Origin: Rhodospirillales bacterium
GTDB taxonomy: Bacteria; Pseudomonadota; Gammaproteobacteria; Burkholderiales; Burkholderiaceae_D
Assembly: GCA_903970305.1 (NCBI GenBank)
Contig: CAJCID010000118.1
Coordinates: forward strand, 1 to 64,000
Direction: 5' to 3'
DNA: 64,000 nt
The position numbers were made by a program, and so were the translations under genes. Under the pieces are notes generated by a model. The model was not told the DNA's origin and did no database searches. It worked only from the letters and a program-made list of their open reading frames with translations. This document shows, one piece after another, positions 13,303 through 26,542 of this stretch (positions within the stretch are counted from its first letter, which is position 1; each line of letters begins with the position of its first letter).

Positions 13303-16047
13303 ATGAAACGCATTGCGCAAGCTGGACTTCGGACCTTGGGTATCGCCGTCACGGTCTTGGTGGTCTTCACCGTCGGCGCAGGCTTGGCTGCAGCGAGCGC
13401 CGCATCCCCGGGCCGCGCATCCGATCCCAACCCAAGCGAAGCCGCATCGGCTCACTTGGGCGACGGTGCCGTGTTGCGCGCCACGCTCGAGAACGGCTTA
13501 CAGGTCGTCATTGTGCGCAATACCCTTGCGCCGGTGGTCGCAACGGCCTTGAATTATCTGGTCGGGGCAGATGAGACGCCACCCGGATTTCCCGGCACAG
13601 CGCATGCCCAGGAGCACATGATGTTCCGCGGCAGTCCGGGCCTGTCGGCGGACCAGTTGGCCGTGCTCGGCAGCCTCATGGGTGGGAGCTTTAACGCCAA
13701 CACGCGCCAGACCGTCACCCAGTATCTCTACACGGTGCCCGCGGCCGACTTCGATGTGGCCTTGCACATCGAGGCCTTGCGCATGCGCGGCGTCCTTGAT
13801 AGCCAGAAGGACTGGGAGAAAGAGCGCGGCGCCATCGAGCAGGAAGTCGCCCAGGACCTCTCGAACCCGCAGTACGTGCTCTATAGCCAGCTGCGCGAGG
13901 TCCTCTTTGCCGACACGCCCTACGCCCACGATGCGCTTGGCACAAGACCCTCCTTCGAGCGTACTACAGCAGCCATGCTCAAGGCCTTCCACGACCGCTG
14001 GTACGCCCCAAACAATGCGATTCTGGTCGTCGTCGGTGATGTCGATCCCAAGGCGGCCTTGGCCAAGATCAAGGAGCTCTTCGGATCGATTCCGCGTAAG
14101 GCTCTGCCAGCCAAACCCGCGATCGAACTCAAGCCCTTTGCGTCTCAAGCGCTGCACCTCGACACGGATCTGTCTTACGCGATGCAAGTCACGGCACTGC
14201 GTCTGCCAGGCCTTGACAGCCCGGATCTGCCCGCCATGGAAGTTCTGGCCGATGCCCTCACCAGCCAGCGCGGCGCGCTCTATCAACTCGTGCCAGAAGG
14301 TAAGGCGATTTCGGCTTCCTTCGGCTACGAGCCCTTGCCCCATGCAGGCATCGGCACGGCTTCAGTGGCCTTTGCCGCCGGCACCGATCCGGTCGCGCTG
14401 GCCGCCGAGGTGCGCGGTATTCTCAGCCGGATCGCGCGCGAAGGCATCGCCCCTGATCTGGTCGAGGCGGCCAAGTTGCAGGAGCGGCGCGCCTTCGAAT
14501 TCCAGAAGAATTCCATCGAAGGCCTAGCGACCGTCTGGTCCGATGCGCTCGCAGTCGATGGTCTTGAATCCCCTGATGAAGATATCGCCCGCATCGAGCG
14601 CGTGACGGTGGAGGACGTGAACCGCGTCGCGCGAAAATATCTCGATCCGCAGGACAGCCTTGTCGCGCTTCTGACTCCGAGGGGCTCGGGTAAACCCGTC
14701 ACCTCGGCCAGCTTCGGCGGCCAGGAAAGCATTGCGCTCGGCGAGGCCACAAGAACCGACCTGCCTTCCTGGGCGAATGCTGCCCTGGGGCGCCTGAGCG
14801 TACCGGACTCGACAGTGCATCCGACGCTAAGCCGGCTGGGCAATGGGCTCACGCTCATCGTCGAGCCTGCACCGGTGAGTGGAACCGTCACGGTCTACGG
14901 GCATATCCGCAACCGTCCGGAACTCGAAGTGCCACCGGGCAAGGAAGGCATCGGACAGATCCTCGAGCAGATGCTCACCTACGGCACCACCGACCTCGAC
15001 CGGATCGCCTTTCAGCGCGAGCTTGACGCGATCGGCGCCGACGAAGGGGCCGGTACCGATTTCCAGGTGAGCATCTTGAAGGAGCATTTCGATCGGGGCG
15101 TCGAGCTGCTCGCCGCCAACGAACTCAGACCGGCGCTACCGGAATCGGCCTTTGCCACCGTCCAAAAGCAGCTCTCGGACACCTTGGCAGGACGCCAGAC
15201 GAGTCCTGACTTTTTGGCAGGGCGCGCGATTCGACTCGCCTTGTTTCCGAAGGATGATCCGACGCTGCGCGATGCCCTGCCCCAGACGGTGGCGAACGTC
15301 TCGCTGGAAGACGTGCGTAGCTACCACGCGCGCACCTTCAGGCCCGATCTGGCCGTCATTCTCGTGATTGGCGACGTCACCCCCGAGGAAGCCCGGTCGG
15401 TCATCGAGAAATACTTCGGAGACTGGCGGGCCCAGGGCCCTCAGCCCAACATCGATCTGCCGGCGGTGCCGCCCAATCATGCCAGCGTCACCGGCGTTCC
15501 CGATTTGAGCCGCGAACAGGATGATGTGACGCTCGCCGAGACCCTCGGCTTGACCCGTTCGTCGGCCGACGTCTACGCCCTGCGCTTGGGGAACAATGTT
15601 CTGGGCGGCGGCTTCTACTCGACTCGTCTGAGCCGCGATTTGCGCAAGGACGCCGGTCTTGTCTATTCGGTCGGTGCGGATCTGGAGTTCGGCAAGACCC
15701 GCAGCCTCTATTTCGTCCAGTACGCCTGCGATCCGGTGAATGTTGAGAAGGTCCATGCGAGCGTCATACGCGAGATCGAGGCGATGCAAAAGGCGCCGGT
15801 CAGCCCCATTGAGCTGCAGCGCTCGAAGGCGATGCTACTGCGCCAGATTCCCCTCGAAGAGGCCAGCGTCGAGGGCATCGCCCAGACGCTCATGCATCTG
15901 TGGGAGCTCGACCTGCCATTTGATGAACCAACCATCGCCGCACGTCACTACATCGAGCTGACTGCACCGGAAATCCAGGCGGCCTTTGCAAAGTGGGTGA
16001 GACCCGCTGACCTGGTGCGAGTGACCCAGGGACCTGCATCCCCCTAG
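13303..16047 (+). CDS. Two-domain M16 zinc peptidase, exported
   Basis: 914 residues from ATG 13303, which has AAAGGA at a better spacing than the in-frame ATGs at 13279 and 13294. An N-terminal signal or anchor (VTVLVVFTVGAGLAAAS) implies export. The inverted zinc motif is H101-A-Q-E-H105, with a third ligand Glu near residue 181 in the EQEVAQD region. The second M16 half (about residue 500 on) retains the HARTFRPDLAVILVIGDV and GGGFYSTRLSRDLRKDAGLVYSV pattern but no HxxEH, as expected for an inactive partner domain. It is comparable in length to the long periplasmic pitrilysin-like insulinases. Confidence 0.9.
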   Translation: MKRIAQAGLRTLGIAVTVLVVFTVGAGLAAASAASPGRASDPNPSEAASAHLGDGAVLRATLENGLQVVIVRNTLAPVVATALNYLVGADETPPGFPGTAHAQEHMMFRGSPGLSADQLAVLGSLMGGSFNANTRQTVTQYLYTVPAADFDVALHIEALRMRGVLDSQKDWEKERGAIEQEVAQDLSNPQYVLYSQLREVLFADTPYAHDALGTRPSFERTTAAMLKAFHDRWYAPNNAILVVVGDVDPKAALAKIKELFGSIPRKALPAKPAIELKPFASQALHLDTDLSYAMQVTALRLPGLDSPDLPAMEVLADALTSQRGALYQLVPEGKAISASFGYEPLPHAGIGTASVAFAAGTDPVALAAEVRGILSRIAREGIAPDLVEAAKLQERRAFEFQKNSIEGLATVWSDALAVDGLESPDEDIARIERVTVEDVNRVARKYLDPQDSLVALLTPRGSGKPVTSASFGGQESIALGEATRTDLPSWANAALGRLSVPDSTVHPTLSRLGNGLTLIVEPAPVSGTVTVYGHIRNRPELEVPPGKEGIGQILEQMLTYGTTDLDRIAFQRELDAIGADEGAGTDFQVSILKEHFDRGVELLAANELRPALPESAFATVQKQLSDTLAGRQTSPDFLAGRAIRLALFPKDDPTLRDALPQTVANVSLEDVRSYHARTFRPDLAVILVIGDVTPEEARSVIEKYFGDWRAQGPQPNIDLPAVPPNHASVTGVPDLSREQDDVTLAETLGLTRSSADVYALRLGNNVLGGGFYSTRLSRDLRKDAGLVYSVGADLEFGKTRSLYFVQYACDPVNVEKVHASVIREIEAMQKAPVSPIELQRSKAMLLRQIPLEEASVEGIAQTLMHLWELDLPFDEPTIAARHYIELTAPEIQAAFAKWVRPADLVRVTQGPASP

Positions 16048-16247
16048 TCAGCATCGGAGTGGTTCCCGCCAAGCCATGCATGAAGATCGTTCTGAATCTT
16101 CGCCTCCGCCGAGCGGCCGGCGCTCACTGTCCGATCCGCGGCTGGGATCGAAGGCTGGTAAAGCCCCGAGTGAGACGGACGGCGCGGCACTTGGCGCGAT
16201 CAAGTCATTTGCGCGTTGCATGCAGGCAACGAACCGCATACAGGATC

Positions 16248-16275
16248 TTGAATAGCAGATCGAGACGCGTATACT
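16248..16275 (+). promoter_or_regulatory. Candidate promoter upstream of the rtcB remnant
   Basis: TTGAAT (16248-16253) and TATACT (16270-16275) with a 16-bp spacer. Transcription would start near 16282. Only 180 bp downstream lies an intrinsic terminator, with no gene of matching size in between. Confidence 0.5.
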
Positions 16276-16281
16276 CCGCCG

Positions 16282-16464
16282 CTCCAACGCTTACGGGCGA
16301 CCTTCAATCGGAATCACAACGCACATGTTCAAGCGACTCAGGACATCCTGATCGCTCGGAGTACGTGGCTCTGAGCGCGTCTTCTCTTTGCTCATCCCAG
16401 CGCTTCTGAACGGTGACTTTCGTCTTCGAGAAAGGCCCTGGTGTAGCCCCGGGCCTTATTTTTT
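16282..16464 (+). ncRNA. Candidate small RNA or attenuated leader upstream of the rtcB remnant
   Basis: The stretch between a plausible promoter (16248-16275) and an intrinsic terminator (16432-16464) would yield an RNA of about 180 nt. It contains an internal hairpin TCAGG-acat-CCTGA that extends through a bulge to CGA/TCG, and no open frame with a ribosome-binding site. It matches no RNA family I recognise. Because RtcB operons in some bacteria accompany Y-RNA-like transcripts, that is one possibility, but this is inference only. The alternative is a leader whose terminator controls read-through into 16484. Confidence 0.35.
16432..16464 (+). terminator. Intrinsic terminator just before the rtcB remnant
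   Basis: AAGGCCC (16432-16438) and GGGCCTT (16451-16457) form a 7-bp perfect stem with a 12-base loop, followed by ATTTTTT. The next ATG is only 20 bases after the T-tract, so either transcription of the following genes depends on read-through (attenuation) or they have lost their own promoter. Confidence 0.75.
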
Positions 16465-16483
16465 GTATCGACGAGAGATCACC

Positions 16484-16690
16484 ATGGGAATTCAATTGGT
16501 ATCGGAAAAGGGACGGGTCCCCGTCAAGGTGTGGACCAGCCAAACTCGTGGGATCGAATGCCGGAAGGACCGTGGGGTACTCGATGAAATTCCTGGAGCG
16601 TACAAGGATATCGATGAAGTAATGGCAAACCAGCAAGACTTGGTTGCAGTGGTGCACACGCTCAAGCAGGTCATTGGTGTGAAGGGGTGA
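16484..16690 (+). pseudogene. rtcB: RtcB RNA ligase collapsed by in-frame internal deletion
   Basis: 68 codons. The first 18 residues (MGIQLVSEKGRVPVKVWT) match the RtcB N-terminus (compare the VPVKMWT of E. coli RtcB). The remaining 50 start at QTRGIECRKD and match the extreme C-terminus (DEIPGAYKDIDEVMANQQ, then VHTLKQV.VKG). About 340 residues of the usual 400 or so, with all Mn2+ ligands and the guanylylated histidine region, are missing, yet the frame is intact and GAGAG precedes the ATG. It cannot be a ligase. The usual penultimate Cys (VCVKG) is Gly here. Recognised from family knowledge, not alignment. Confidence 0.85.
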
Positions 16691-16693
16691 GAC

Positions 16694-17650
16694 ATGCGCG
16701 AAGACATGTACAAGGTAATCGTTGAGCGACCCAGGCTGCGTACCGGCCTTATGGGCGGCGAGAAGAAGGATGGGCGACTGTTCCGGAACCGGGTCGAACC
16801 TGACGAGGATGGCGGTGCTGCGGCCCGTACTCTTGGGATGCGCGCCGGATACCAGCGGCGCAAGTGGCTGAACGAAAACCTGGCGCCGCTGCGGCGCTGG
16901 CTCTCGGCTCAGGCTGGTCGTCAGTGGAATGACGTGTATTCCGAAATCGCCTCTGGGATCGACCGACGCAATCCGGTGCAACAACACATCTTTGAGCACA
17001 TCGGCCAGTATGTCGCACTCCACGGTTTGGTGGTGGACGGGACATTTCTGGTCCGAGATCACTGGCCGAATAAGTATGTGCCTGTCGCCGAAAGCCGCTT
17101 TCTTCTGTATGTCGACCATCGATCAGGAGTGCTCTGTACCAACGTGGAACGCAAGACAAGCCGACAACGCAAGCTTGAACGGCTTGCCAAGGCGCCACGC
17201 GCGAAGCGCCGGATCATCGGGCCACGCGAGCAACTACACTTCGTAGAGGGCATCTGGTATCGCGTGGCGTTGGCCCGGGTTGTAGCGAGCGCACGTGGAG
17301 ACGGTGATGCTTATCTCCCTTGGGATGCACTGATTCACGAGAAGGCTGGCCACCGGAATAGTGAACAGCGAAAGCTGCTCTATGGAGATGGAGAGCTCTA
17401 CGCGAAATCGAAGAAGCAACTCTCGCGAAAAGAGTTAGTGATGTTGAAGTTGGATCAACAGGCCGGGTCAACCCGGCCTGTTTTTTTTGACGTCGACATC
17501 ACCCATGCCCCTGACCGAACTACCGGCACGTACACAGGAGGACCCTGGCTTGGCCCCGAGTCATCAAGTCCAGTTATCCGAAATCACTCAGGTGCTCGTG
17601 CGTCGGACTTGCTCCAATCCTGCGACCGGCCTCGGGGCACTCTCGGGTGA
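16694..17650 (+). CDS. Uncharacterised protein adjacent to the rtcB remnant, frame runs through its terminator
   Basis: The start ATG lies 4 bp after the rtcB remnant stop. The N-terminus MREDMYKVIVERPR is followed by a basic, Arg/Lys-rich protein with GMRAGYQRRKWLNENLAPL, an FEHIGQYVALHGLVVDG segment and a C-terminal SKKQLSRKELVMLKLD. No signal peptide or membrane helix. I recall this type of protein beside RtcB genes elsewhere, but no function. The natural end is probably near 17457 (about 254 residues), because an intrinsic terminator occupies 17458-17488. The frame continues 54 codons beyond it, suggesting a lost stop codon or a frameshift; one base gained in the AAAA run near 17428 would reach a TAG at once. 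Confidence 0.65.
   Translation: MREDMYKVIVERPRLRTGLMGGEKKDGRLFRNRVEPDEDGGAAARTLGMRAGYQRRKWLNENLAPLRRWLSAQAGRQWNDVYSEIASGIDRRNPVQQHIFEHIGQYVALHGLVVDGTFLVRDHWPNKYVPVAESRFLLYVDHRSGVLCTNVERKTSRQRKLERLAKAPRAKRRIIGPREQLHFVEGIWYRVALARVVASARGDGDAYLPWDALIHEKAGHRNSEQRKLLYGDGELYAKSKKQLSRKELVMLKLDQQAGSTRPVFFDVDITHAPDRTTGTYTGGPWLGPESSSPVIRNHSGARASDLLQSCDRPRGTLG
17458..17488 (+). terminator. Strong intrinsic terminator inside the 3' part of the preceding reading frame
   Basis: ACAGGCCGGGT (17458-17468) and ACCCGGCCTGT (17471-17481) form an 11-bp perfect stem, followed by eight T. It ends the rtcB-remnant transcript. 17489-17667 has no gene I can support; an open frame from about 17505 (MPLTELPARTQEDPG) has a start but then becomes antisense to the VOC gene. 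Confidence 0.92.
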
Positions 17651-17667
17651 AGATCTCGATCGTGGAG

Positions 17668-18036
17668 CTACTCCCTACGGGCCTCAAACAGCTCGATCGG
17701 GTTTCCTGAAGGATCCTCTACCAAAACTTGTCTGCCGCCGGGACCGAGAACAGGCTCGCTGCGAAATCGCGCCCCGGTCGCTCTCATGGCGGAAATTGCC
17801 TCGTCAAGGTCATCGACCTGGAGCACAAGGCGGTTCCAACCTCCCGGCGAAGGCAGCGATCCGTCTGCTAAGGGCTTGGCCGCGGATGTTCCCGGACCGC
17901 TCAGCCATAGTTGCAGGTCGTCGCGTTCAAGTATCACAAAGGGCGGTCCCCAGCGCTCCTTTTCTTTGAAACCCAGCGATGTGTAAAACGGCATGGAAGC
18001 GTCGACATCCTTGACCAGGTAACGCACGAGTGCCAT
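17668..18036 (-). CDS. VOC-family (glyoxalase/bleomycin-resistance fold) protein
   Basis: 122 residues from ATG 18036, which has GGAG 6 bases upstream; an alternative ATG at 18048 adds four residues. The two beta-alpha-beta-beta-beta halves are visible: ALVRYLVKDVDASMPFYTSLGF and NRLVLQVDDLDEAISAMRA (quoted in part), ending VLVEDPSGNPIELFEA. The metal-site Glu in the last motif is present, but the N-terminal histidine of classic glyoxalase I is not, so the substrate and activity are unknown. Confidence 0.85.
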   Translation of the reverse strand: MALVRYLVKDVDASMPFYTSLGFKEKERWGPPFVILERDDLQLWLSGPGTSAAKPLADGSLPSPGGWNRLVLQVDDLDEAISAMRATGARFRSEPVLGPGGRQVLVEDPSGNPIELFEARRE

Positions 18037-19091: not shown

Positions 19092-22000
19092 ATGGAGCGG
19101 ACTTGCAATGGGCTCTGGCGCCACCGCCTGGACAGAAAGAGCCTCTTGGGCATGCTTTTTGTCCTGTGCACGCTGTGCATGGTCTTTGGCATGCGCTCGG
19201 CCCATGCGCTTAATCCAGGCAATCCCACCGCCGGCGCCACCCTTTACAACGGGCCCGCCAGCGCCACCAATCCGGATTGTGCCGGATGTCACGGCGCTCC
19301 GCCGAACGCTGCGAACACGACCGGAATCTCGGCCGCCTCGAACAGTTCAACCCTGATTTACGACGCCGCGAACACGCCCGGGGTCAATGGGCCCGGAGGT
19401 ACCGGCAACAGCTGCACCGGCGGTATGTGTACCGATCCGGGCGTCGAAGCCAGCATTGCGCCGATCGGCATGGCCCAAAACCGCCTGGATGTCGCGGCTT
19501 ATATCGGTCAGTGGGCGACGCCCGTGATCGCCACCTCGCCCGTGAATCTGGGCAACCCAACTCCGGTAGCGTACAACACGCCCCTGGCGATTAACGTGGC
19601 GAACTATGTATCGGGGGGATTCACCGGAGGGACAGTCTCTGAGGCGAATCTGATCGCCGGCGGCACGCCCAGCTACATCACCGTCACGCCCAGCGCGCAT
19701 AGCGCCATCACCTACGGGGGTTCGGGCACGGCGTTCACCTACACACCGGATACAACGCTCTACAACACGACCGATACCGTGACCTATACCGTGACCTCGG
19801 CAAACGGGGGCACGTCCACATCGGGCACCATCAACATCACGATCGGTCCTCCTCCCGCGCCCACCCCGCAGAACCAGACGATCGCGACGGCAGTGGCCTA
19901 TCAGACGACGACGACGCTGACCTTGGACAACACCAAGATCACCGGCATCTCGACGGGAATCTCGCTGCCAACGACGACAACGACGCTTGGGGGCACGATC
20001 GCCGCTGCAGGCGGGTACAACGTCACCTACACGCCGCCTAACGGCACGTATTCGGCGGTCAACGGTAACGACACCTTCACCTACAAGGCCGTCGGGCCGG
20101 GCGGGACGAGCACGACGACGGCAACCGTCACGGTGACCATTGCCAACCCCAACCCCGGGCCGCACGCCTACACCGCGACGGTGGCGTTCAATAGCGGTGC
20201 GCCAATCCAGAGCAGCCCGATCAATATCACCAACGCCTTCACCAATCCCGGCCAGGCCAATTCCTATGTGCTCGACACCACGGGCATCAAGGGCACCGCG
20301 ACCCTGAGCGGCACCACGGTCACCTACACCCCGCCTGCGACCCAGAGCGGCGCGGGCCTTGATCAGTTCAAGGTCGAAGCGGTCTCGGCCGGCCTCACCT
20401 CGGCCGCTGCCACGGTCACCGTCAATGTGGCACCCCCTGGTCCGCCCGTCTTGGGCGGGGTGACGAGCCTGAGCATCAACGGCAGCTACAACACGGGAGC
20501 GATCTCGACGCCACCGGTCAACGTGGCCTCTTATTTCACGGGCTATATCACGGGCTTTACGATCACCCCCGGCGGCGGCAACAAGGGAACGGCGACGATC
20601 GATGCGAGCGGCAATCTGACCTATACGGGCCCGGTGAACGCGACCACGACCGATACCTTCGCGGTGCGGGCCACCAATTCCGGTGGCACCCAAAGTTCGG
20701 TTGCAGCGTTGGCCGTCACGGTGACCGTACCGACTCCGGGCACACCCACTGCCGGTCTGGATACGGTCTCTGTACCCTATAACACGGCCACGCCGATCAA
20801 CCTGGCCAGCGTTATCACGGGCGTTCTCGATCCGACGACTCCGGTGATTCTCGCCCAGGCACCCAAATATGGCACGGCAACAGTTGCCGGCACGACTGTG
20901 ACCTATACGGGTAATGTCGGCTACTACGGCAAGCAGGACAGCTTCACGTACAAGGCGCATGGCCCCGGCGGTACCTCGCCGGCTGCGACCGTGACGCTCA
21001 ATGTCGGACTGCCTCCGGCGCCGGGCGCGGCCGCCAGCACTTTGGCGGCCATCTATCAGGTGCCGGCGACGATCGATCTGACCTCCAGTGTGAGCGGCAT
21101 CGCCACCGGCGTTGCCGTGGACACCCAGCCTGCGCACGGCACCGCGGTGGCGAGCGGCTACCGCATCACCTATACGCCAGCGGCAGGGTTTCTCGGCGCC
21201 GACAGCTTCACCTACAGCTCGGTCGGTCCGGGAGGAAATTCCGCCCCCAGCACGATCACGGTGAAGGTCACCGCCCTGCCCACGACAGCGCCAACGGTGA
21301 ACATGATGGTCGGCTTGAATAGCCCCAGCACCCTGAATCTTGCAAACTTCATCACCGGCTCGGGCATCACAGGCGTAGAGATCCTGACCCAGCCTGCCCA
21401 CGGCAGCGTGACCGTCAACGGCACGCAGGTCACCTATACCCCGGTGCCTAATTTCTTTGGCAAGGACACCTTCACCTATCGCGCCTTCGGGGTCGCAGGC
21501 CAGGCGACCGGCACGGTCGTGGTGACCGTCTTTGGCCGGCCCGACCCAAGCCAGGACGCCGACGTGAACGGGCTGATCGATGCCCAGGACGCCCAGGCGA
21601 GACGCTTCACCCGGGTGCAGATCGACAACTTCCAGGAGCGCATGAACAGTCTGCATCATGCGCCGCCGCCCGTCGATGAGACTCCACCTGCTACGGCGAG
21701 CCGTGCGCCCAGCCAGGCCCAGGCGCTTGGGTCCGTATCTGTCGCGGGAGCGGGCATCACCACGAGTCCCGGCGCCCCGCTGGGTAATGGGCTCGTGCCG
21801 GCCCTGGCCGCCGCAGGCAATCCGCGGCCCCAGCCGGCGGGTCCCGTTGTCGATCCATTTGCCGATTCTCCGAGCGCGGCGATGCCGGACCCTGCCCTGG
21901 ACACGCCCTCGGGCCAGTACCGGCTGATGCTGCCCGCCTCGGGCGCGATTGTCGCAGGGGGTGCAGGGGGTGGCGCGGGCCCGTCCGGTGCAGGCTTGGC

Positions 22001-23771
22001 CGGCGGGATGGCCATGACCAACCTCGCCTCACTCGATCTGGCAAGCGTGGTCAATGGCGTGACAAAGGGCCTGGACGCCGGCAGCGGCATCGGCTTTTGG
22101 GCGACAGGTGCCCTGAACTTCGGGAATCGCGAGCAGCCCAACGCGCTCTCCGACGGGCTGAAGTTCCACACCGATGGCTTAAGCCTTGGCGCGGACCGGC
22201 GCGTCAGTGACAATCTGGTCCTCGGATTGGGAGTGGGCTATGCCTACGATCGAACCTTCGTCGGAACCGACGGCACCCAAAGCCAAGCCAGCGGCACGGT
22301 GCTCGCGGCCTACGCAAGCTACCAACCGACGCCCTCGATCTACATCGACAGCGTCATCGGCGCGGGAAACCTCAGTTTCGATTCAGTGCGCTTTGTCGCC
22401 CCGATCGATGCCGTCGCGAGCGGCCACCGTTCGGGACAGCAGGCCTTCGCATCGGTCACGGCGGGCTACCAGTTCCAGGAAGCCGGGTTCCAGTGGTCTC
22501 CCTACGGCCGGATCGATCTGGCCACGGACCGCCTGCACGCCTACACCGAGACCGGCGCGCAAAACTATGCGCTCACCTATGGAGCGCAAAGCGTGCCCAC
22601 CGAGGAGCTGGCTCTCGGTGTGCGGGCCGATCTCGTGCACGAGACCAGTTTTGGATCGGTCTCGCCCCATGCGCGCATCGAATACGAGCATGACTTCGAA
22701 GGTCAGACGACAGCGACGGTCGCCTATGCTGACCTCCTCAACAGTACGAGCTATGGCATCACAACCAACGCAATCGATCGCAATGCCTGGGTGGGCGGTG
22801 TCGGGGTCGACTTCAACTTCGCGCACGGACTGCGCCTGGGCATCGACTACGAGGCGCTGCGCGCAGTGGGTGCCGAGAACAGCCAGATGATCCGCTTTAA
22901 GCTCTCGGAGGATCTCGATGGGGGCCTTCTGCCCGACTTCTCCCTGGCGCCTTGGTCAGGCCGGGGCTTGGGCCTTAGGGCCGATGCCTCCTACACCTTC
23001 GATGACAACGTCACGCGCAATGACGGGGCCGACAAACTCTCCGACCAGTCCTACAGCCTCAGATTGGTCAGACCCTTCCTCGTGCCCTTGGGGGACAACC
23101 TCCGGGCGATCGTGACTCCCTTTGTCGGAGGGGAGAAGTTTGTCGACTATGGCGGACTGAACCACTCGGTCTACGGCGCGAACGGCGAACTCCAGTATCG
23201 CGGCGCGGGCGACTTCGACAGTCCGATCTACGCCCTCTTCCTGCACGCCAATGGCGAGGATTACAACTCCTACGAGCGCACGGGCTACCGCTACTCGGTG
23301 GGACTGTCGGTGAACAAGCCCCTGACAGACCGGATCTCGCTCTTTGGAGCCTTGGCCTATGACGATCGCCACGCCAACAGCAGCGTTTTCGACGATCAGG
23401 ACGGCTCGGCGCGCCTGAACCTGGATTACGCCCTCGGTTCGCGCGCCACCGTCTATCTGTCTGGAGAATACCGGCGCGGTGACGTGGTCTCGGTCGGACA
23501 GGGCGACCTCGGAGACTTCAATATCGCAAGCGTCATTGTGCGCGACGACGCCTTTAGCGATTCCTCCATCACGCGCTTTGCCTATCGCTTCCGGGCGGAC
23601 ACGTACCTGCTCGGGCTGGGCTACAACTATGCCCTGGGTGAACGCGACTCGCTCGATCTGTCGTGGCGCTGGGCGCAGTCGACGCCGCTGCACCAGCCCA
23701 ACTATGCCAACGCGGCTTTCATCCGCTATTTCGACAATCAACTGACCGTGGTTTACCTGGTCCGGTTCTAG
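19092..23771 (+). CDS. Giant outer-membrane protein: heme-c motif, Ig-like repeats, autotransporter barrel and a second beta-barrel
   Basis: 1559 residues. A signal peptide ends at SAHA (about 39). Residues 40-141 hold one c-type heme motif, C63-A-G-C66-H67, in a small cytochrome-like segment. Residues about 142-812 comprise about seven cadherin/Ig-like repeats of roughly 95 residues, each ending in variants of DTFTYKAVGPGGTS plus a TVTVTV strand. A Gly/Pro/Ala-rich linker (813-995, with DPSQDADVNGLIDAQDAQ) leads to an autotransporter-type barrel (about 997-1275). A further barrel (about 1278-1559) begins near RADASYTFDDNVTR and ends in VVYLVRF with the C-terminal Phe used for BAM insertion. 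The start has GGAGG 7 bases upstream. The function is unknown: adhesin, electron conduit or both. Confidence 0.8.
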   Translation: MERTCNGLWRHRLDRKSLLGMLFVLCTLCMVFGMRSAHALNPGNPTAGATLYNGPASATNPDCAGCHGAPPNAANTTGISAASNSSTLIYDAANTPGVNGPGGTGNSCTGGMCTDPGVEASIAPIGMAQNRLDVAAYIGQWATPVIATSPVNLGNPTPVAYNTPLAINVANYVSGGFTGGTVSEANLIAGGTPSYITVTPSAHSAITYGGSGTAFTYTPDTTLYNTTDTVTYTVTSANGGTSTSGTINITIGPPPAPTPQNQTIATAVAYQTTTTLTLDNTKITGISTGISLPTTTTTLGGTIAAAGGYNVTYTPPNGTYSAVNGNDTFTYKAVGPGGTSTTTATVTVTIANPNPGPHAYTATVAFNSGAPIQSSPINITNAFTNPGQANSYVLDTTGIKGTATLSGTTVTYTPPATQSGAGLDQFKVEAVSAGLTSAAATVTVNVAPPGPPVLGGVTSLSINGSYNTGAISTPPVNVASYFTGYITGFTITPGGGNKGTATIDASGNLTYTGPVNATTTDTFAVRATNSGGTQSSVAALAVTVTVPTPGTPTAGLDTVSVPYNTATPINLASVITGVLDPTTPVILAQAPKYGTATVAGTTVTYTGNVGYYGKQDSFTYKAHGPGGTSPAATVTLNVGLPPAPGAAASTLAAIYQVPATIDLTSSVSGIATGVAVDTQPAHGTAVASGYRITYTPAAGFLGADSFTYSSVGPGGNSAPSTITVKVTALPTTAPTVNMMVGLNSPSTLNLANFITGSGITGVEILTQPAHGSVTVNGTQVTYTPVPNFFGKDTFTYRAFGVAGQATGTVVVTVFGRPDPSQDADVNGLIDAQDAQARRFTRVQIDNFQERMNSLHHAPPPVDETPPATASRAPSQAQALGSVSVAGAGITTSPGAPLGNGLVPALAAAGNPRPQPAGPVVDPFADSPSAAMPDPALDTPSGQYRLMLPASGAIVAGGAGGGAGPSGAGLAGGMAMTNLASLDLASVVNGVTKGLDAGSGIGFWATGALNFGNREQPNALSDGLKFHTDGLSLGADRRVSDNLVLGLGVGYAYDRTFVGTDGTQSQASGTVLAAYASYQPTPSIYIDSVIGAGNLSFDSVRFVAPIDAVASGHRSGQQAFASVTAGYQFQEAGFQWSPYGRIDLATDRLHAYTETGAQNYALTYGAQSVPTEELALGVRADLVHETSFGSVSPHARIEYEHDFEGQTTATVAYADLLNSTSYGITTNAIDRNAWVGGVGVDFNFAHGLRLGIDYEALRAVGAENSQMIRFKLSEDLDGGLLPDFSLAPWSGRGLGLRADASYTFDDNVTRNDGADKLSDQSYSLRLVRPFLVPLGDNLRAIVTPFVGGEKFVDYGGLNHSVYGANGELQYRGAGDFDSPIYALFLHANGEDYNSYERTGYRYSVGLSVNKPLTDRISLFGALAYDDRHANSSVFDDQDGSARLNLDYALGSRATVYLSGEYRRGDVVSVGQGDLGDFNIASVIVRDDAFSDSSITRFAYRFRADTYLLGLGYNYALGERDSLDLSWRWAQSTPLHQPNYANAAFIRYFDNQLTVVYLVRF

Positions 23772-23782
23772 AGGATTTGATC

Positions 23783-25789
23783 GTGAACACTCGGCACTAC
23801 CTGCGTCTTCTTGCCATGCTCTGCGTGGCGCACCTGACCCTCGTCGTGGCCGGCTGCGGTGGCGGCGGAGGGGGCTCCAGCGCCGACGCGACCACCACCC
23901 CGCCCCCCTCGACCGCGGGCAGCACCCCGCCACCGGTTCCGGCAGGGCCGAACAGCTTCTTGATGTTCCCCAATCCCCAGCTCCAATCCGACGGAGTGGA
24001 CCAGACCAACAGCACCGACTACACCAACGCCTATTATCAGGCGATCGATCCGAGCAACCAGCGCGCCAGTCTGGCGCAGTTTGAATCCGTCAACGGGTTC
24101 GGCAGCGGCACCGGTACCGAGTTCACCGTCATCTTCAGCGATACCACCGATCTGGGCTACGGGCGCAGGCTCACCGCGCGACGCAATCCCGACGGAACAC
24201 TCGCCTTCGTGGTGGAGAACTATCTGGTGGGCGGTTTTGGCAGTTATGGATCAGGGGCAGGCCAGGCGGCGCTCAATCTCCAAGCGGCGATCAGTCGGGA
24301 CACGCGCTGGCGCGTCGAGATCAACGGCATCGAATTTAGCCCCGCCCCGGCGGGCACGGTCAGTTTTGCGAAGTTCTACGCCTTCGACACCACCACCGAA
24401 GCGCGCCTTCTGCAAGGCACGCTGGACAACCGGGGACCCAAGGCGATGCCTTCGGTGTGCATCAGTTGCCATGGCGGACGCGGCGATGCGCTCACGCCCC
24501 CGGCGGCAAACGGCTTGCCGCTTTTCCCCTTGGTCTATAACTCGGTCTCGCAGGCCCGTGGCGACACCCAGGCGCGTCTCCAACCCCTGGCGGTGAACCT
24601 GCAGACGTTTGCCACCGACGGCGCCTACACGCGCGCCAACCAGGAAGCCAATCTCAAGCTCTTGAACGAGTGGATCTTGTGCAGCTACCCCCTATCAGCC
24701 CCCTCCAGCGCTCCTGAAGACGCCTGCCGCCGGGCTGCGAGCGGCAACGAGTGGCAGGGTGACACGGCGGCCACGCTCATCAAGGATGCCTATGGCGGTC
24801 CGGGTCTGCCCAACGCGACCTATGTCGACACCTACGAGCCTTCTGACTGGATCTCCTTTGGTCAACAGACGCTCTATAAGACGAGCGTCGCCACCTCCTG
24901 TCGCGTCTGCCACCAGCTGCGCGGCACAGGCAACCAGTCGGATCTGGATCTGTCCACTTACACGAAGTTTTCGGGGTACACCGACAGGGTCTTCGCGCAT
25001 GTTTTCGACCGCGGCAACATGCCCCTTGCCGAAATCATCTACGCGGCCTTCTGGACCACCGAGCCCGCCAATCCCGCCGCCTATATGGCGACCTACCTCG
25101 AAGGTCAGGGGTATTCGACCTTCTCTGCTTCAGGAGCGGTGCTCAAGCCCGGGCGACCGATAGCGGATCCGGGGCCCGACCGCGTCGTCACCCCGGGCGC
25201 GACGACCCTCACGGCGGCCATGAGTCTGTATGCGACAACCTATAACTGGACGCTCGTCTCAGGTCCCGCCGGAGGCGCAACCCTAACCGGGGTCACGGGA
25301 GTCCAGCCGGTCTTTACCGCGAGCCTTGCGGGCACCTATGTCGTCCAGCTCGTGGTCGGCAATGGCACCCAACAGAGTCCGCCGGCCCAACAGACGATCG
25401 TGGTCAGTAGCAGTCTCTCCCCCGCGCCCAGCGCGATCCGCTGGGTCGATGTCAAGGGAGTGCTCCAGGGGGCCACGGGAGATTGTGCGAGTTGCCACTA
25501 TCCCAATACCGCCTCAACTGGCGTGCCCCCCATCTTCTATACCGACTTCGACCGCAATGGCGATGGCGTCGTCGATGCGACCGACGACCTGTGGTTCTAT
25601 ACGGAGGTGCGCGGCCGGATCAACTTCACCGACTACATTGCCAGTCCGCTGTTACGCAAACCCTCGGGAAATCATCACTTCGGAGGACTTCGGCCCGGGT
25701 TTGACACCACGGCCGTCCCAGGCGATCCGGCACGCCAGAGCTACGATCTCATCGTGAACTGGATCTTAAACGGTGCGCCCTACCAGTAG
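23783..25789 (+). CDS. Triheme c-type cytochrome lipoprotein with an Ig/PKD-like domain
   Basis: 668 residues from GTG 23783, which has GAGGA 7 bases upstream. A lipobox LVVAGC with Cys25 is followed by a Gly run and a Thr/Pro-rich tether, so the protein should be lipid-anchored. Three CxxCH heme motifs are present: CISCH (about 226), CRVCH (about 373) and CASCH (about 568). A PKD/Ig-like segment (about 455-555) lies between the second and third, and a DRNGDGVVDATDD calcium-like loop follows the third. It starts 11 bp after the giant barrel protein, so they are very likely one operon and partners. It may donate to or accept electrons from the surface protein; this is inference. Confidence 0.85.
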   Translation: MNTRHYLRLLAMLCVAHLTLVVAGCGGGGGGSSADATTTPPPSTAGSTPPPVPAGPNSFLMFPNPQLQSDGVDQTNSTDYTNAYYQAIDPSNQRASLAQFESVNGFGSGTGTEFTVIFSDTTDLGYGRRLTARRNPDGTLAFVVENYLVGGFGSYGSGAGQAALNLQAAISRDTRWRVEINGIEFSPAPAGTVSFAKFYAFDTTTEARLLQGTLDNRGPKAMPSVCISCHGGRGDALTPPAANGLPLFPLVYNSVSQARGDTQARLQPLAVNLQTFATDGAYTRANQEANLKLLNEWILCSYPLSAPSSAPEDACRRAASGNEWQGDTAATLIKDAYGGPGLPNATYVDTYEPSDWISFGQQTLYKTSVATSCRVCHQLRGTGNQSDLDLSTYTKFSGYTDRVFAHVFDRGNMPLAEIIYAAFWTTEPANPAAYMATYLEGQGYSTFSASGAVLKPGRPIADPGPDRVVTPGATTLTAAMSLYATTYNWTLVSGPAGGATLTGVTGVQPVFTASLAGTYVVQLVVGNGTQQSPPAQQTIVVSSSLSPAPSAIRWVDVKGVLQGATGDCASCHYPNTASTGVPPIFYTDFDRNGDGVVDATDDLWFYTEVRGRINFTDYIASPLLRKPSGNHHFGGLRPGFDTTAVPGDPARQSYDLIVNWILNGAPYQ

Positions 25790-25804
25790 CGCAGGAACTC
25801 TGGC

Positions 25805-26542
25805 TCAGTAGTCACGGCGTGGCGCGCTGTAGAGCGACCCGGGGAAAACCCAGGGCGGCGTACGCCCGACAAGCGTCTCGATGAGCGCCAGTTCCTGATC
25901 GGTGTGGTTGATGAAGGGCGCATTGCGGATGGAGGCACCCGCCGGCGCATTCTTGAGGATGTAAAGCGGATTGTCGTGGTGCGTTGCGACCACTGTTTTC
26001 TGGCTTTCGGGATCATCGATCGCGGTGGTGTCCGAGATCCCATAGCAGGTGCAAAAGTAGGTCCGCTCCGGATCGGATTCCATATAGACGCCGGTGCCGC
26101 GGATTCCGATCGTGGCCGAGGGCGTGCGCAACGCCAGGCCGCTACTGCGCGAAACCGACAGGATCGCTCCCTGTATCAAGCGTAAGCCACTGATCAGAAA
26201 CGAGTCCGTCGAGTCCTTCTTCGAGGCGAGCTCGAGATGACTGTTGGCGCGCAGGATCATCGAGTTGCCGCCGACGACAAAGATGATCTCGCTATCGGGA
26301 CCAGTCTCGACGGTGTCTTGTGCGGTCACGCGGGTCTCGAGGGTGGCCGGTTTGCCATTCACGCTGGCCGTACCGGAGATTTTGTAGATGGATTGACCCT
26401 CGGGCAACTTCGAGGGGGCCCGCCCGAACAACTCGTCGCCGAGGGCCTGTCTTGCCGGCAGCGCCGCGGAAAAAAGCCCCATCGCCAAGGCCTGGACCAG
26501 GATACGACGACGCGGGTCATCGGCTTCGCCAGAACGACTCAT
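25805..26542 (-). CDS. FecR-domain protein, exported by a Tat-like signal
   Basis: 245 residues. A twin-arginine leader (RRRILVQALAMGLF) precedes the FecR beta domain (about 50-160; LETRVTAQDTVETGPDSEI and TPSATIGIRGTGVY). It then carries the unusual C164-T-C166-Y-G motif and a C-terminal tail with a HHDNP segment. Unlike FecR proper there is no anti-sigma region or membrane helix before the domain, so it is probably a periplasmic or surface accessory protein. AAGGGGAAGGGG precedes the ATG. It converges on the triheme lipoprotein gene with a 15-bp gap, suggesting association with that module. Confidence 0.75.
   Translation of the reverse strand: MSRSGEADDPRRRILVQALAMGLFSAALPARQALGDELFGRAPSKLPEGQSIYKISGTASVNGKPATLETRVTAQDTVETGPDSEIIFVVGGNSMILRANSHLELASKKDSTDSFLISGLRLIQGAILSVSRSSGLALRTPSATIGIRGTGVYMESDPERTYFCTCYGISDTTAIDDPESQKTVVATHHDNPLYILKNAPAGASIRNAPFINHTDQELALIETLVGRTPPWVFPGSLYSAPRRDY

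Follow-up and report, generated by a model that had tools for sequence, protein, structure and literature searches.

In the known outer-membrane conduits, electrons cross wide barrels filled by multiheme proteins, and in Cyc2 one 16-strand barrel carries a directly fused heme. The outer-membrane component of Slam/type XI secretion is the SlipAM barrel; this secretion system delivers both lipoproteins and soluble proteins, either to the surface or through it (portions of PMC9090332, PMC8406197 and PMC12282271); the cargo is kept unfolded ahead of crossing (PMC9090332, in the portion used) and known cargo bears a TbpB-type eight-strand barrel (PMC12282271, likewise in part). Chains with two barrels, as in the locus studied here, have been described among multi-barrel outer-membrane proteins (Solan et al. 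2021, via a portion of PMC8592465). The locus is a new combination of known parts, widely conserved. It lies in a window of 64,000 nucleotides, the whole stretch of DNA analysed, on contig C118 of a 4.3-Mb draft assembly.

The first gene (19092..23771, + strand) encodes a 1559-aa protein with a Sec-like signal, a one-heme head, Ig repeats, an autotransporter barrel and a second barrel, here called B2. The CxxCH scan places the CAGCH heme-c site of the head domain at 19278..19292 (+), around residue 63, and about six Big_9 Ig repeats follow in Pfam (E 2e-34). The autotransporter beta-domain (22095..22853, +; aa 1002-1254) is full-length, covering 255/255 positions of PF03797 at E 5e-43, and B2 occupies 22974..23771 (+; about aa 1295-1559). 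Eleven nucleotides separate the stop of this gene (23771) from the GTG (23783) of a lipoprotein ORF on the same strand whose stop codon ends at 25789; the product has a lipobox ahead of a Gly run, cytochrome-c and PKD signals in Pfam and three heme motifs, CISCH, CRVCH and CASCH, so that the four CxxCH sites of the module start at 19278, 24458, 24899 and 25484. Convergent to this pair is the gene of a Tat-type FecR-domain protein (25805..26542, − strand) with FCTCYG, HH and NHTDxEL motifs; the CTCYG codons, computed from the ORF, fall at 26039..26053 (−), FecR residues 164-168. ORF and CxxCH scans of the locus and of relatives' loci found no periplasmic multiheme protein encoded in the operon. 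The three ORFs, the 11-bp spacing, the four CxxCH sites and the convergent Tat-type FecR gene are thus as the earlier note on this DNA had them, and the parts are envelope proteins, as it also said. Upstream in the window, between an M16 peptidase and a VOC protein, positions 16001-18000 have a lower GC content (0.58) and hold overlapping ORFs without obvious identity.

The three genes form one real, conserved module. Strong lipoprotein matches (E below 1e-150) were found in 7/60 relatives, own genome included, and in all six others B2 lies upstream of the lipoprotein gene with FecR within ~3 kb. Scanning the species-genome collection for the FecR family turned up 111 relatives. The analysis went on with the best 80 loci, almost all titled as Betaproteobacteria; many of these 80 are contig-cut, and 66 have B2, 49 the lipoprotein and eight neither. 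Thirty-eight of the 80 have at least 4.5 kb on either side, and counting neighbours within 6 kb in this set gives B2 in 35, the lipoprotein in 24, the autotransporter barrel in 22 and none of them in three. Wherever both are present (43/43 loci), the lipoprotein gene immediately follows B2 in the same orientation, with 28-97 nt between the profile ends. At 49 of 66 loci FecR lies within 500 bp in convergent orientation, at seven it is within 500 bp on the same strand, and at ten it is placed otherwise. With B2 beside the lipoprotein in 43/43 loci and beside FecR in 35/38, the genes do co-occur in other genomes, and the objection foreseen in the earlier note, that they might not, fails. A count not seeded from FecR points the same way: of 229 class genomes, B2 is present in 13, a full-length FecR of this family in 13 and both in 11 (hypergeometric 3e-15, the related genomes not being independent; a weak fourteenth B2, in G131, was set aside). 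The exceptions are G150 and G255, with B2 and no FecR, and G214 and G273, with FecR and no B2. All six of the 229 that carry a full-length lipoprotein also have B2. The constant core is B2 with FecR, often without heme proteins, the lipoprotein being absent beside FecR and B2 in 11 of the 38 long-flank loci. For a wider FecR group (L146-L153), the stretches fetched contain no B2.

The window's own B2 has no Pfam match of its own and no heme site. Its structure model (pLDDT 92.7) is a barrel of 12 strands, counted by hand from the listed elements, and Phe is the last residue in this B2 and in at least 90% of B2 members, in keeping with outer-membrane proteins, which end likewise. SlipAM heads the weak Pfam matches of the family (6/63 members, best 2.5e-5). 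Profile-profile comparison with SlipAM barrels, 5 divergent and 30 further ones, gave 94.7-96.7% probability at E 6e-8 to 4e-10, and in control comparisons the autotransporter barrel reached 0.3-0.5% against B2 and 1.1-19.9% against SlipAM. The MtrB/PioB profile matched 1/63 B2 members, at E 0.04. On this profile evidence B2 appears to be related to the Slam/type XI secretion barrel and not to MtrB/PioB. The module resembles Slam systems in having a lipoprotein gene adjoining the barrel at every locus with both, other module loci being without lipoprotein. It differs from them in that B2 has 12 strands in the model and no TPR domain (none was found in stand-alone B2 proteins of 306-323 aa), in that the window's B2 is fused to an autotransporter, and in that the module's candidate cargo bears hemes, with no Pfam match to a TbpB-type barrel in 42 lipoproteins. 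Type Va autotransporters (PF03797) share with the window protein a full-length beta-domain and an N-terminal passenger; here, however, B2 comes after PF03797, so the 12-strand translocator is not C-terminal, and the passenger bears a heme-c site.

The structural neighbours of B2 are broader. They include autotransporter translocators (VIA Z 20.4, rmsd 2.9-3.1 over 232 residues) and, by Foldseek and VIA, COG4313, FapF and small channels including CymA, KdgM and OmpG; there is no Slam entry among the Foldseek matches listed for B2, which carries no weight either way. Since autotransporter barrels and other channels are nearest, fold alone singles out no translocon, and the presence of the substrate channels COG4313, CymA, KdgM and OmpG is what one would expect were B2 a small-molecule channel, FecR a structural protein of the envelope and the lipoprotein either kept on the periplasmic side or an envelope enzyme of the peroxidase or oxidase type. 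As a general consideration, a narrow barrel is a difficult passage for c-type cytochromes that are already folded, and this too speaks for a lipoprotein that stays inside. Against such an arrangement stand the profile relation of B2 to SlipAM and the lipoprotein itself, which belongs to no known enzyme family by Pfam, NCBIfam or PDB sequence search: NCBIfam returned nothing useful, and the PDB sequence search yielded only PKD domains and a cytochrome c6 match at chance level. We regard this arrangement as doubtful. Judging from the profile relation and the gene neighbourhoods, B2 most likely acts, in partnership with FecR, as a translocon or an anchor in the outer membrane.

FecR-domain genes also neighbour some SlipAM genes themselves. 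In a sample of 114 genomes of the class such a gene adjoins SlipAM at 5/5 loci found. A sample of 398 genomes of the phylum has SlipAM matches in 50 genomes, and a FecR-domain gene lies within the fetched flank at 9 of the 50 SlipAM loci examined, which do not cover all matches. Split by strength of the SlipAM match, FecR is beside 2/30 of the strongest (1.5-kb flanks) and 7/20 of the weaker (~3-4 kb flanks). The pairing thus recurs in divergent SlipAM and is rare in the strongest matches. Divergent TPR-SlipAM genes with a directly adjoining FecR-domain gene were seen at L139-L143 and at L188, L190, L198, L201, L202, L205 and L208. The module in this way ties FecR-domain proteins to Slam-like barrels; the word "FecR" is absent from the main text of two type XI secretion surveys (PMC12282271, PMC8406197) and likewise of PMC10734462, PMC12442390 and PMC5566968. 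In the open PMC literature we found no paper joining FecR with surface lipoprotein assembly modifier or DUF560, none joining FecR, autotransporter, cytochrome c, beta-barrel and operon, and, among the matches listed, no title describing the module.

The FecR protein of the window has a twin-arginine start, a FecR domain (23.0 bits in Pfam, marginally below the cut-off of 24) and then C-terminal motifs of its own. Its structure model (pLDDT 85.5) matched only the anti-sigma/FecR fold, that of the PupR signalling domain, in Foldseek. It thus shares the domain fold of FecR/PupR anti-sigma regulators and differs from them in carrying a Tat signal instead of the anti-sigma part and in its C-terminal Cys/His motifs; a role as an anti-sigma factor was rejected on the Tat-type N-terminus and the lack of an anti-sigma domain by Pfam. 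C164, C166, H189, H213, D215 and E217 are invariant in 67/67 aligned members, a conservation that for this set is partly by construction, since one of the two search patterns included the CTCY motif. All 21 members obtained in other ways retain the C-x-C; L151 departs at the first His site and L123b, a tandem paralogue, at the last. The FecR proteins of L118 and L145 carry CTCYG and NHTD, L145 with a single His at the first site. CTCYG does not occur in the own genome's six other FecR-domain matches (five genes), one of which has an unrelated C-x-C. What the earlier note had called a rare motif is, on these alignments, a signature of its own FecR family, C164 and C166 being present in 67/67. 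Tat export combined with a pair of Cys and a pair of His residues points to a possible metal cofactor, and from the near-invariant Cys-x-Cys and two His residues we infer that FecR may bind metal. At L123 (3378-4770) the FecR gene is in tandem duplicate, one diverged copy being without the last His motif.

The lipoprotein keeps three CxxCH in 46/50 near-complete homologues and a lipobox, by pattern match, in 45/48, where L025 (LNAC) and L056 (LMSC) fall outside the pattern and L010 is a broken reading frame; together these counts make a triheme lipoprotein more than chance. Met414-Pro415 and a His pair at 632/633 are invariant in the family and could be axial heme ligands. The heme head appears to go together with the lipoprotein. 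Among 25 non-redundant autotransporter-B2 fusions with complete N-termini, CxxCH is found in 13/14 with the lipoprotein and in 0/11 without it (Fisher p 5.6e-6, computed on 13/14 versus 0/10); fusions whose N-terminus is broken or at a contig end, such as L025, were left out, and L017 and L014, L023 and L012, L091 and L013, and L094 and L011 are the same contigs. The exception, L063, is a true one, with a complete N-terminus, the lipoprotein and no heme in the head. On the B2 tree there are two independent contrasts only, in the same direction and too few for significance, so the association is suggestive. The tree was made by a quick method and some contig-cut rows are labelled "solo", so that the ten changes of the autotransporter label on it are an upper figure. 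The non-heme fusions L021, L058, L062, L087 and L116 have another head in common, in which an Ig-like stretch comes after paired Cys (AECGG...QCI or NCI).

These non-heme fusions bear on the suggestion that the module is a surface adhesin or sensing unit, in which FecR would sense or gate, the Ig autotransporter would stick and the hemes would be incidental or structural. The lack of CxxCH in every fusion without lipoprotein fits it, as do the PupR signalling-domain fold of FecR and weak matches of FecR to the leptospiral adhesin Lsa33 (51/67 members, best 5e-10, all far below cut-off). We nevertheless hold it to be quite unlikely: by Pfam FecR has no anti-sigma domain, and where there is a lipoprotein, its three hemes, kept in 46/50, point to a redox or heme function. 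The extracellular redox module of the earlier note fares accordingly. Heme parts do tend to come as a set, which supports it; redox as the essence of the module is not supported, given FecR and B2 without lipoprotein at 11 of the 38 loci and heme-free heads in all fusions without lipoprotein.

In Gammaproteobacteria the parts of the window's fusion occur as separate genes. One-heme proteins are encoded directly upstream of a separate B2 gene in L117, L118, L121 and L125. In L121 and L125 the order is a one-heme large protein, B2 and the lipoprotein, with FecR near; L117 has the same three-gene order with FecR not in the stretch, and the L118 stretch ends before the lipoprotein position. The large protein of L123 is without CxxCH. 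Scans of the large proteins of L118, L121 and L123 showed Ig/cadherin repeats in all three and no autotransporter domain. That the window chain is a fusion of genes neighbouring elsewhere argues that the heme/Ig protein and B2 act together. FecR and B2 without heme proteins are present here too (L119, L122, L124, L126, L128, L130); a single-CxxCH ORF close to L124 probably represents a spurious frame.

An electron conduit, in which a barrel would sheathe a cytochrome and electrons would pass the outer membrane as in Mtr, Mto, Pio or Cyc2, was the function raised in the earlier note, and heme proteins, a lipid anchor and barrels in one operon are what makes it attractive. The module has an outer-membrane barrel and cytochromes in common with MtrAB, MtoAB, PioAB and PCC3/PCC4, yet its operon encodes neither an MtrB/PioB barrel nor a multiheme periplasmic protein. 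Heme and barrel share one chain, as in Cyc2, but the head heme is ~900 residues away from the barrels, which begin at aa 1002 and are of two other types. An Mto/Pio-like set does exist elsewhere in the own genome (contig C299, L211:5132-9665), comprising a decaheme protein (391 aa, 10 CxxCH), an MtrB/PioB barrel (881 aa) and a diheme protein (257 aa). MtrB/PioB is commoner where the lipoprotein is present, in 4/7 relatives versus 6/53 without it (Fisher p 0.011) and in 2/6 genomes of the class versus 14/223 (p 0.058), the own genome being counted in both comparisons. This favours some link to conduits, though it indicates a partner conduit rather than the module itself as one, and since MtrB/PioB is not required, an accessory surface role is possible. 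Paucimonas lemoignei is an aerobic heterotroph. The full set in its cultured strain DSM 7445 (locus L039) argues against a role in Fe(II) oxidation only. A porin-cytochrome or Cyc2-like conduit was rejected as the main reading: B2, modelled with 12 strands, is narrow, heme-free and apparently secretion-related, its companion barrel is of the autotransporter type, neither of the two matches MtrB/PioB, and the occurrence of B2 and FecR without hemes elsewhere counts against it as well. We rate it very unlikely.

The reading that we favour, tentatively and at a little under an even chance, is that the module is a surface-display device adapted to heme proteins. Its old core would be a barrel of the Slam/type XI kind without TPR, B2, together with the Tat-exported, probably metal-binding FecR. 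B2 would pass the triheme PKD lipoprotein to the outer face or hold it there, the Ig stalk of the fused autotransporter would bear the one-heme head, and the outcome would be a four-heme cytochrome assembly on the cell surface that may trade electrons with something outside or feed a separate conduit, for example the Mto/Pio-like one on contig C299. This display reading is weakest at export: a cytochrome with its hemes in place is hard to reconcile with Slam cargo being kept unfolded until it crosses. The missing TPR domain of B2 and the missing TbpB-type barrel of the lipoprotein weaken the reading further, as do the occurrence of B2 and FecR without lipoprotein and the fact that FecR neighbours are a minority of SlipAM loci outside the first sample.

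We also speculate, as an improbable extension of surface display, that delivery and electron exchange could be one machine, in which the Slam-like barrel and the FecR metalloprotein export and hold both the triheme lipoprotein and a heme-tipped fibre. The Cys2His2 site of FecR would then be filled in the cytoplasm before Tat export and FecR would be a redox or gating partner. If so, Slam-like barrels would in general have FecR-domain proteins as a class of partners. Two open questions could be tested on this compact conserved three-gene unit in the cultured P. lemoignei strain: by which routes, other than the known ones, heme proteins may arrive at the surface, and what function the many unnamed envelope cytochromes found in environmental Betaproteobacteria serve.

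B2 barrels were also seen in other surroundings. The own genome has a second, stand-alone B2 on contig C232 (L115:2777-3718), which adjoins a prolyl-oligopeptidase-like gene and has no FecR or heme genes nearby. At L127:8022-11287 and L129:5787-9025, B2-like barrels without FecR lie beside GGDEF/EAL proteins that carry a dCache sensor, which gives this barrel family a third context.
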